Assembly: GCA_018266295.1 (NCBI GenBank)
Contig: JAFEAQ010000015.1
Span: 62,001-126,000, forward strand
Length of the DNA: 64,000 nt
Reading direction: 5' to 3'
From: Bdellovibrionales bacterium
GTDB taxonomy: Bacteria > Bdellovibrionota > Bdellovibrionia > Bdellovibrionales > Bdellovibrionaceae
This document shows, one piece after another, positions 45,059-49,820 of this stretch (position 1 is its first letter; every line of letters starts with the position of its first letter). A model generated the notes under the pieces. That model saw only the letters and a list, made by a program, of their open reading frames with translations. It ran no database searches and was not told the DNA's origin. Both the position numbers and the translations under genes were made by a program.

Positions 45059-45325
45059 ATGAGTTTCAGCTTCAAATGGTCGATTCTATTATTGATTCTC
45101 CTAGGCGCTGTGGGTTGCACTGATGGCAATCCACAAGTCGACTTTCTCACCATGCCGACAATTCAAAAAGTCGTGAAGCCCGGAACTCCAAGCTCGGTGA
45201 ATCTTTCGCCAACAACAACGGTGACGGGGGGAAGTTATCAGCTAAAGGGCCGCGTGAGTTATATCACCACGCAAACGGCAATCAGTGGCGGGAACTATAA
45301 AATCAAAGGAAAGATTTCATTCTAA
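45059..45325 (+). CDS. Small lipoprotein upstream of the fibre gene
   Basis: 88 aa. Signal and lipobox LLGAVGC at about residue 20. The mature part holds two similar short units near the C-terminus, [14 protein letters not shown] and [14 protein letters not shown], beta-strand-like repeats. It ends 13 bases before the fibre ATG, so it is cotranscribed. A plausible role is an outer-membrane anchor, cap or chaperone for the fibre; the sequence shows only the lipobox and the repeats. SD weak. Confidence 0.65.
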
Positions 45326-45338
45326 CCAAGGACCAAGG

Positions 45339-48300
45339 ATGAGTAAATTCAGCACGTTTATTCTTAGTCTTATGTTTTTATCAAGCACAGCGCACGCTGC
45401 TCCGAATACATTCGTCTACGAAGGTGTGCTGGAAGACACGAACGGCCCGATTACCAGCGCTTCGTCATTAACTTTGAAAATCTATGATTCCACACTCAGC
45501 TGTCTTTTGTACGAAGAAACGCAGTCGGTGACTCCAGGGTCCGACGGCTCGTTCAGTGTTCTTGTGGGTTCTGCCGTTGCGGATGCAAAACGTACCGCAA
45601 ATGATCCACAGCTGGCGATGTCGACGGTGTTTATTTCAAGTGGAACGGTTCGTACAGCTGGAAGTGCCAACTGTACGACGGGCTACGCGGCGGCGAGTTC
45701 CGACAGTCGTCGTCTTGTGATTAACGTGAATGGTACAGACCTTTCTCCAGCGGTGGAAATTTCTTCGGCTCCTTTTGCTGTTGCAGCTGGCACGGCTGAC
45801 AAGATTGGTACTTATGATACTTCAAAACTTTTGCGGAGCGACGGTACAGCAGCGGTGACAGCCTTGACTGATGCCAAAGTCACTTTGCTGATGAATCTTT
45901 TAAATGGCACGGTGGTGACTCCGACCTCAAGCGGGGATGTAGCCAATAAAGGTTACGTTGACGGAGTGACTGCGAATTACTTACCGACATCAACCGTGTT
46001 TTCGGGGGATGTCAGTGGTACGTCGAGTAGCTTAAGCGTTGATAAAATCAAAGGGACCCCTGTCGATACAACGGGTCTCGTTGCCAATAAAATCTTAAAA
46101 TACGATGGAACGAAATGGATTGCGGGCGATGACAATAGCGGCTCGGCGCTGAGTCTCACCAGCGGCAAAATTTGGATCGGTAACGCGAGCAATGGTCCGA
46201 GTGAAGTATCTCTTTCTGGAGATGCGACAGTGGCGACGAGCGGCTTGATCACATTAAAGAGCGTTGGCACTGTTGGTACTTACGCAAAAGTCGTAACGGA
46301 TGCTCAAGGCCGTGTGATTTCGGGGACGGGGCTTACCAGCGGCGATGTTACCGGTGCGCTGGGCTTTTCACCGACGTCAGCTACTTCCGGTTTTATGAAT
46401 GGCGGCAACTCGTTTGGGGCTGCAGCTTCGCTTGGAACAAATGACTCTCAGTCTTTGAGTTTCAAAACAAACAGTACGACAAAAATGACGATCACGTCGG
46501 CGGGTAATGTCGGTATCGGCACGACCACTCCGGCAAATCCATTGGATATCGTTGGTTCTGTGAATGGCATGCTGGCCTCGACGGTGACTAATAATAACTC
46601 CTCGGGAACGACATGGTACCGAGTCACGAATGATGCGAGTCACTCCCTGCAATTTGGTGTTGCTGGTACGACTTTTAGCTCGAGCGGTGTTTACGCCCCC
46701 AATACAGCAACGATTTATTCCGATGTGAACTTAGCAGGTTTGAATCTCGGAACTGAGGGCGCTCAACCAATGGGTTTCTTCACTAATAATGCACTTAAAA
46801 TGACTTTGGATTCCTCTGGAAAACTAGGAATCGGCACAGCATCTCCTTCTGCAAATTTAACCGTGGGTGATGGCGCTGCGAATGACGGTATGATCATGGC
46901 CCTGGGCTATGGAACCGTTGGTACAAGCGGATCCTCGCTTTCAGTATCAGGCGCCGGAACGCGCATGATGTGGTATCCGAAAAAAGCGGCCTTCCGTGCG
47001 GGGGCGGTGTCAGGAACTCAGTGGGATGATACGAGCATCGGAACTTACTCGGTCGCGGCTGGCTTAAGCCCCATCGCTTCTGGGTCTAACTCCGTAGCCC
47101 TAGGTAATGGAGCGACAGCCTCTGCGGCTAACGCATTCGCATTAGGGCAAAGTGCCACAGCGACGTCGGCGGCTTCATACGCCATCGGCTCATCAGCAAC
47201 AGCTCAGGGAACTTCTTCCGTTGCGATAGGATCTTCTGCCAATGCATCGGCAACGAATGCAATTGCCATTGGTTTATCGACTTCTTCGAGCGCCACACAC
47301 GCAGTTGCTCTCGGTTCCAATGCGACAGCGAGTTCGACAAATCAAATTACTGTCGGTCCTTTTAATTTACCACTTGGAACTGAAAACGCGTCGACATGGG
47401 TTGCCACGGACCCTCTCTTTGTGATCGGTAACGGCGCCAGCTCCGCAGCTAAATCAAACGCCATGATGGTACTTAAAAATGGCAATATCGGTATCGGCAC
47501 AACAGGCGCACCAACAAGCGGTGCGCGCTTAGAGATCGCCGGCAGCGGAGCTTCTGCAAGCTCGATTATTATTCCGCGCGACACCACTGCAAATCGCCCG
47601 ACCGGCGTGAACGGGATGATTCGTTACGCGACAGATACAAATAAATTCGAAGCCTATGAAAACGGTGCCTGGACAAACATGATCGGCACTGGCGGCGGTT
47701 CAGGCACCGTAACTTCAGTGGCGGCTGGCAGTGGATTGACTGGCGGCACGATCACGTCCTCAGGGACTCTGGCGGTGGATTCAACCACGTCTGGTGTTGC
47801 TAGTAAAATTTTAGCATTAGATGCTTCAAGTGTGGCGACAGTTTCGGGATTAACTATTAAAGGAAACACTACAGGAACAGCCACTTTGCGCGCGCCTGCT
47901 AGTTTCACAAGTTACTCTCTGACTTTCCCGACATCATCAGGCACCAATGGCCAGGTGATGACATCAGACGGGGCGGGGAATCTAAGTTGGACAACTCCGA
48001 GTACACTTCCCTCTGGAACGACCGCTGATAATTATTTAAAATGGACTGGTACGAACTGGGCAGAGGCTTCGGTGAACGTAACGACCATCAAAGGAAATCT
48101 CGGTACGCAACAGTTCCCAACAAACTGCAAGGTGAGCCAGACCATGGTTTGGAATTCGCCGACGGACTCTTTCATGTGCGCAGATACAAATGCCGCGACA
48201 GTATCGACGATGGATAAAACAATCTACGTCAATGCCTCCGGCAGTGATACCGCTTGTAATGGGACGGCCGCTGCAAGTGCTTCAACTCCACCGAATTGCG

Positions 48301-49820
48301 CCTTCCAGACTTTGCAAAAAGCAGTTGATAGCACGCCAGATTTCATCCGCCATAAAATCACCATCGAAGTCGGTTCAAATCTGACATCTCAAGGGAACGA
48401 TACGGCGGTGGCAGTTATTAATAAAAATATAGCCGCGCAAAGTATCACGAACGGTCCCTTCTTAATTATTAAAGGATCTACAGGTTCTGAAATTATCAGC
48501 CAAGGCGCATTTTCAAATGGGACCGGTATTGTTGTTGGACCAGCCGCCAGCGGGGTTTATATCAAAGAAATCGGTATCAGTGATTTCCAAGATACAGGTA
48601 TTCGTATTGATGGTGGTTTAGCCGTTATTGATAATGTCATCTTTAATAACAATCGCCGCGGTCTTTCTGTTTCAAGCGCAGGCCGCGCGATGTTAGGTGC
48701 AAATATCAATATTAACTTATCAAATTCTTCGGGCACTGATGGTTCTCGCGGGATTGAGGTTTATCAGGGTTCAGTTAGTTCCGAAGCGGCGTTGAATATC
48801 AATCTTGGGGCCGCACAAAACAATCGTGGTATTGGTATCGAGTACGGAGATTTGAGTATCGAAGAGCAAGCGACAATTAGCGGTACGGGATCTCAATATC
48901 AGACGGGTGTTGAGGTCGGCAATGGTGGCTCTTTGAGAGTTGAAAATAACTACACCTTGCGTGTGAACATGGGCAACAACTATAGCTCAACCGCCGTTCG
49001 TGTCAGTAACGGTGGTCACCTCAGTGTTAATGGAACTTTGCAGCCAGAATCTGTTTCAAATACGGCATTAGTCTGTGAAAACAATGCGGTCTGTGATTTC
49101 TATGGAGCTTTTTATATTCCGAATACAAGTTCGAGCACGAATGGATATGTCATTGTTAGAAATGGATCTATTTTAAATGCCCAGTTGAGCTTTAAACTTG
49201 AAGCCAACACCATCGGAACCGGTGCGGCGGCGATTCAAGTATCCGAAAATTCGATCTTCAAGTTTAACCCAGTGGTGTCTGGCGGCATCTTAAGAGTTTA
49301 TGGCAATAGCGGTGCGGTTGGGATTCGGGTGACAAATAATAGCCAATTTAAAGTCGAAACATCTATGAGCCACAACTTGGACTTTGTCGGTTTAAACAAC
49401 ATGGCAGAAGTTTCTAATATGAGTTCAGCGACCTTTGCTTCCAACGTGATTGGTGGTAACTCGCTTGCGATGAGTATGGATGATTCTAGTAAAATCACCG
49501 CACCAGCGGGCTATGGTTACGCAATACCATACAAAATCTGCCCAGGGGGCATGACTCCTGTTGGAAGTGGCAATGCTGGATTCTGTATGGACACCTCAAA
49601 CACAACCCAGGCGACTTACTATAACGCCCTCAATACCTGCTCAGGCCGCGGTTTAAAACTCTGTACAAAACAGCAATACGCTATGTATTGCGCTCAAGGA
49701 AACACCATCAGTCCAGCAGTCTGGACGGCAAACATCGAAGATCTCACATGCGGTCCATCTAGTTTAAGCGCAGCCGGAGATGTGATTAATATGAATTACT
49801 ATTTCCGTTGCTGTCAGTAA
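45339..49820 (+). CDS. Giant mosaic trimeric fibre / adhesin (MAT-like)
   Basis: 1493 aa from the ATG after AAGGACCAAGG; the longer frame from 45285 overlaps the lipoprotein and is not signal-like. Signal peptide 1-20 (ends STAHA). Then a beta-sandwich-like N-terminal domain ([14 protein letters not shown]), and tail-fibre-type units near 389, 494 and 715 ([41 protein letters not shown]). YadA-head-type repeats lie at about 565-670 ([19 protein letters not shown]). A right-handed beta-helix-like region covers about 960-1385. The C-terminal 100 residues are Cys-rich ([18 protein letters not shown]). This plan fits the chimeric fibres that Bdellovibrio uses to recognise prey. Confidence 0.85.

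Follow-up and report, generated by a model that had tools for sequence, protein, structure and literature searches.

Predatory bacteria of the Bdellovibrio group grip their prey with long mosaic fibres. The mosaic adhesive trimer (MAT) family of such fibres was described in B. bacteriovorus HD100, where all 21 members carry a conserved N-terminal domain (N-domain) of ~130 aa behind a signal peptide, and where the surface element bound by this domain still awaits identification (PMC10769870). The tip of one member, Bd2740, has been crystallised and has a C-type lectin fold (PDB 8OKS). A lipoprotein that works with a surface fibre is known from Salmonella, where the inner-membrane lipoprotein SadB helps to display the trimeric autotransporter SadA on the cell surface (PMC3953254). 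The word lipoprotein does not occur in the text of PMC10769870, and no link between lipoproteins and MATs was found in the open-licence PMC literature.

The window, a whole stretch of 64,000 nucleotides from a Bdellovibrionales bacterium, contains a small lipoprotein gene directly followed by a large fibre gene (Table 1). The preliminary description of this DNA had the lengths and coordinates right (an 88-aa lipoprotein, 13 bases, and a 1493-aa fibre from the ATG at 45339 to 49820), and the 13-base gap with its AAGGACCAAGG stretch suggests that the two genes may lie on one transcript.

Table 1. Features of the lipoprotein–fibre locus, in positions of the window.
Feature	Position	Strand	Evidence
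Small lipoprotein gene, 88 aa	45059..45325	+	ORF; two-repeat MAT-linked lipoprotein family
Lipoprotein signal peptide and lipobox LLGAVG/C20	45059..45118	+	Sequence
Lipoprotein repeat unit 1, residues 56-68	45224..45262	+	Shuffle test, z=5.7 for the repeat pair
Lipoprotein repeat unit 2, residues 76-88, C-terminus	45284..45322	+	Shuffle test
13-base intergenic gap with AAGGACCAAGG ribosome-binding stretch	45326..45338	+	Sequence
MAT fibre gene, 1493 aa	45339..49820	+	ORF; MAT-N profile
Fibre signal peptide, cleavage at about AHA/A	45339..45398	+	Sequence
Conserved MAT N-terminal domain, Bd3182-like 'YEGxLxD' class	45399..45833	+	Alignment, profile
YadA-head-type repeats, shaft	47061..47408	+	Pfam PF05658, E=8.9e-10
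Repetitive beta-helix-like shaft	48291..49478	+	By eye; no family match
Tip domain, Bd2740-type C-type-lectin-fold family, eight cysteines	49530..49817	+	PDB and profile search

The Window Fibre Is a MAT

A profile of the MAT N-domain matched the window fibre (G000:C15:107336) at E=9.7e-49, the fibre being itself one row of that profile. The same profile found exactly 21 places in genome G036, equal to the published number for HD100. G036 was identified as HD100 from its MATs: one of 922 aa has all seven Bd3182 residues named in PMC10769870, and two others correspond to Bd2740 (627 aa) and Bd2734 (843 aa). The window N-domain was 36% identical to that of Bd3182. A scan of genome contigs with MAT N-domains found only four loci.

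The view that the 1493-aa protein is a chimeric fibre was thus borne out, since it shares with the HD100 MATs a signal peptide, a conserved beta-rich N-domain, a mosaic shaft and a variable tip; it differs from them in a new combination of base and tip, in the YadA-head repeats and in the long beta-helix-like stretch. Most parts described earlier were recovered, namely the tail-fibre-type GIGT repeats (at residues 389, 494, and 718), the YadA-head-type repeats (PF05658, E=8.9e-10) and a Cys-rich C-terminal tip, the final 93 residues holding 8 of the 16 cysteines of the fibre. For the region called beta-helix-like (about residues 985-1380), a repetitive stretch can be seen by eye and no Pfam match backs the label. 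The S74 motif was absent from the window fibre. A YadA C-terminal membrane anchor barrel was not found with Pfam, in which only the YadA_head repeats matched, and the C-terminus is a lectin-type tip where YadA-type autotransporters have their anchor barrel.

Several MAT genes of the source genome are cut by contig ends (C4, C8, C11, C15, and C19); breaks of the assembly at MAT repeats are the probable cause, so that the seven N-domains counted in this genome are a lower bound. Behind other MATs of the source genome, with an overlap or no gap, lies the gene of a further large exported protein (RCC1-like, glycine-rich or repetitive; L032:2-2308, L033:5206-6999, and L035:2-1756), which suggests further two-gene fibre units.

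A Tip and a Base of Different Classes

Searched against the PDB as a single sequence, the last 106 residues of the fibre gave 8OKS as the sole match, a weak one (E=0.072). With a profile of eleven aligned relatives, 8OKS was the top match at E=3.6e-11, which places the window tip in the Bd2740-tip sequence family. The homology covers the last ~96 residues and includes a conserved Cys pattern and a Trp; identity between the window tip and a Bd2740-type tip is only about 28%. The proposal of a C-type-lectin-like ligand-binding tip stands in so far as the tip is homologous in sequence to the crystallised one. The window tip differs from that of Bd2740 in being carried on another N-domain class. 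The C-termini of the window's N-domain class were of S74 chaperone type in the examined relatives with complete ends, and the examined MATs of the Bd2740 class had lectin-type tips; the window fibre is therefore a natural recombinant of base and tip.

A Family of Two-Repeat Lipoproteins Linked to MAT Genes

The linker between Cys20 and the repeats of the window lipoprotein is rich in Pro, Thr, and Ser. The residue directly after Cys20 is Thr and not Asp, which, under the E. coli rule, fits sorting to the outer membrane, where the protein is probably located. The two strand-like units noted earlier are real: residues 57-66 and 77-86, spaced by 20, were more similar to each other than in all 200 shuffles (z=5.7). 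Searches of PHROGs, Pfam, NCBIfam, and PDB with the lipoprotein returned no family and no counterpart. The NCBIfam model 'spanin2' matched three members of the family described below (best E=0.002) and was dismissed as similarity of signal-peptide type.

The window lipoprotein belongs to an undescribed family without a counterpart in Pfam, NCBIfam, or PDB, in which a lipobox and a loose linker precede two short C-terminal repeats with a spacing of 19-22 residues. All of these parts are present in the window lipoprotein, and its gene lies beside a MAT. A search of 119 relatives with the window lipoprotein as the sole query returned a small number of full-length matches, most of them directly upstream of MATs and two of them orphans. 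Matches to profile A2 at E<1e-6 from outside the profile (eight genomes) were directly upstream of MATs in six of six cases. A broader profile, A3, with 19 rows, recovered further lipoprotein classes. Of 60 family-wide hits from outside the profile, 49, in 20 genomes, had a same-strand MAT as their immediate neighbour; most of the 49 lay just before the MAT gene, and overlap with it was frequent. The chance expectation for such adjacency is 1-2%, and the figure of 49 of 60 is descriptive because the hits include orthologues. The remaining 11 were orphans with no MAT nearby.

In HD100, all eight members detected were linked to MATs. Six were upstream of a MAT, including those before Bd3182, Bd2740, and Bd2734, the seventh was directly downstream of a two-MAT cluster, and the eighth was divergent and about 0.9 kb away; 13 of the 21 HD100 MATs had no lipoprotein immediately beside them. 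Within the taxonomic family of the window's source, a member was detectable in 54 of 61 MAT-bearing genomes, and among five MAT-less genomes the only one was a contig-end fragment (Fisher p=0.002), with a family profile that misses divergent members. MATs occur through the whole class, also outside the family of the window's source, and in 10 of 30 genomes outside that family the best MAT was preceded by a lipoprotein scoring against the family profiles. Those lipoproteins were mostly larger (about 190-260 aa), and most of the 10 had the same two C-terminal repeats, a few of them weak.

The preliminary description had called for a search for other fibres preceded by a small lipoprotein and had named the lack of such partners as what would speak against the pairing; the adjacency in 20 genomes and the linkage of every HD100 member answer both. 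Its suggestion of a general rule holds for most MAT classes and fails for the SLTYQGRI class, the largest, with most of the 21 MATs of HD100, which has no own lipoprotein beside each gene. SLTYQGRI MATs seem to share a single lipoprotein with its gene at a fixed locus. The locus of this likely partner is conserved; some genomes have MATs next to it, others none. In genome G031, 18 MATs are present and no lipoprotein was detected, and G045 is without the shared lipoprotein class and has a low-complexity block at that locus instead; both are counter-cases to a strict pairing rule. The G045 block (L212:400-1350; G045:C1, about 3168.9-3169.85 kb) is rich in Ser-Phe and Ser-Ile-Tyr-Leu codons and could reflect either an insertion or an error of assembly.

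Lipoprotein Classes Follow N-Domain Classes

Sixty-three adjacent lipoprotein–MAT pairs were aligned, and 51 non-redundant pairs entered a Mantel test. Lipoprotein and N-domain distances were correlated at r=0.83 (permutation maximum 0.15), a result that alone is no proof of contact because linked genes share history. The correlation was also present among six paralogous pairs of HD100 (r=0.87, p=0.01) and absent from five G045 pairs alone (r=0.06). Repeat spacing was 19-22 residues in nearly all 63 pairs despite greatly differing sequences, and repeat similarity exceeded that of shuffles at p<0.05 in 70% of the 63 lipoproteins.

The window lipoprotein and its N-domain are both nearest to the Bd3182 class, and the tip is of Bd2740 type. 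The idea that the lipoprotein is a partner of the tip was therefore abandoned: it goes with the base. Mainly from the window fibre, it would appear that the lipoprotein stayed with the base when the tip changed.

AlphaFold was run on two natural in-frame pairs of lipoprotein and N-domain, the stop codon being read as Gly to put both in one chain, a device that implies nothing on translation. In both pairs, the N-domain was confident (pLDDT mostly 85-96) and the linker disordered, and one repeat per pair, a different one in each run, was ordered as a strand or hairpin (pLDDT about 63-81). Contacts and docking were unreadable from the output, so binding is still inferred. The first model had no Foldseek match with E<0.001, which agrees with the published statement that the domain lacks a PDB homologue.

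Proposed Anchoring of the Fibre

Being matched in class to the N-domain and encoded with it, the lipoprotein is a natural candidate for the surface element that the N-domain binds. We consider that these lipoproteins are cognate outer-membrane anchors that hold the MAT fibre via its N-domain, with a probability of about 0.6; encoded beside many MATs and matched to them, they are a strong candidate for the part that holds these fibres on the predator surface. The lipoprotein and fibre genes of the window would form one unit, with the lipoprotein held in the outer membrane by a lipid on Cys20. The two short C-terminal beta repeats, borne on the loose linker, would bind the N-domain at the outer surface of the predator and thus hold the fibre on the cell, the C-type-lectin-fold tip pointing outward, presumably for use on prey. 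Each N-domain class would have a lipoprotein class of its own, and the MATs of the SLTYQGRI class would have in common one lipoprotein from a fixed locus. More tentatively, and with the odds somewhat against it, the system may resemble a plug and socket, in which lipoprotein sockets are matched to base classes and tips are freely exchanged while the pair of socket and base stays fixed. Fibre anchoring would, if this were true, be distinct from autotransporter barrels and from pilus-type assembly. The family would supply a genetic candidate for the element left open in PMC10769870, and its eight HD100 members include the neighbours of the well-studied Bd3182, Bd2734, and Bd2740.

The main rival to anchoring is a role of the lipoprotein in export or assembly, as a periplasmic chaperone or pilot that aids trimerisation of the MAT or its crossing of the outer membrane and has no place in the finished fibre. 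It is in our opinion unlikely, at something like one chance in a few. We know of no mechanism by which MATs cross the outer membrane, which counts in its favour; a lipoprotein gene that comes first, often overlapping the MAT gene, would fit an early need, and one lipoprotein for many MATs would fit a catalyst. Cognate gene pairs of a lipoprotein and a trimeric adhesin with such a role do exist (SadB–SadA; PMC3953254). As in Salmonella, a lipoprotein gene here adjoins the gene of a trimeric surface fibre; however, SadB is an inner-membrane protein with a MATH-like fold (PMC3953254), whereas the window-type lipoproteins are far smaller and without a Pfam family, and MAT fibres are without the YadA anchor. 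The SadB Pfam family found no match among 19 lipoprotein members at E≤0.1, nor did any Pfam lipoprotein or chaperone family match. Moreover, a mature part made of a loose linker and two 13-residue units would be small for a chaperone, and matching to the N-domain class suits anchoring at least equally well.

It is improbable that the linkage reflects shared regulation of surface proteins only, with no physical partnership. The orphans of the census would agree with it, but genome-wide the members adjoin MATs and hardly occur elsewhere, MAT-less genomes are without them except for the single fragment, and the lipoprotein and N-domain classes co-diversify in the Mantel analysis. Small lipoproteins that are encoded next to another protein and matched to its class are typical of immunity and exclusion functions, yet it is highly improbable that the lipoprotein covers the tip or stops self-binding and so shields the predator against its own fibre. 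Such a blocker would be expected to track the tip, whereas the window lipoprotein follows the base class even though its fibre has a tip of a different class, and lipoproteins of the Bd3182 class accompany S74-type ends.

MATs are redundant, and deleting one of them therefore has almost no effect. If the lipoproteins do anchor the fibres, removal of one that is shared, such as that encoded behind the two-MAT cluster of HD100 at about 3.191 Mb, might disable many MATs at once, and this might make the role of MATs in prey recognition testable.

Related Lipoprotein Loci

A 782-aa LamG-like fibre protein that was not detected as a MAT adjoins a two-repeat lipoprotein (L279:2854-5202) and is possibly another fibre type with the same partner. 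Two further loci, in two genomes (L069 and L070), have a TolB-like gene in common in front of the lipoprotein, and a MAT follows the lipoprotein in one of these genomes only; thus, the MAT appears to have been gained or lost while the lipoprotein stayed. Lipoproteins of ~210 aa (L144:1127-1759, L214:1479-2117, and L215:1199-1831) combine an extra domain with the same two C-terminal repeats, and are divergent from a MAT of another class.
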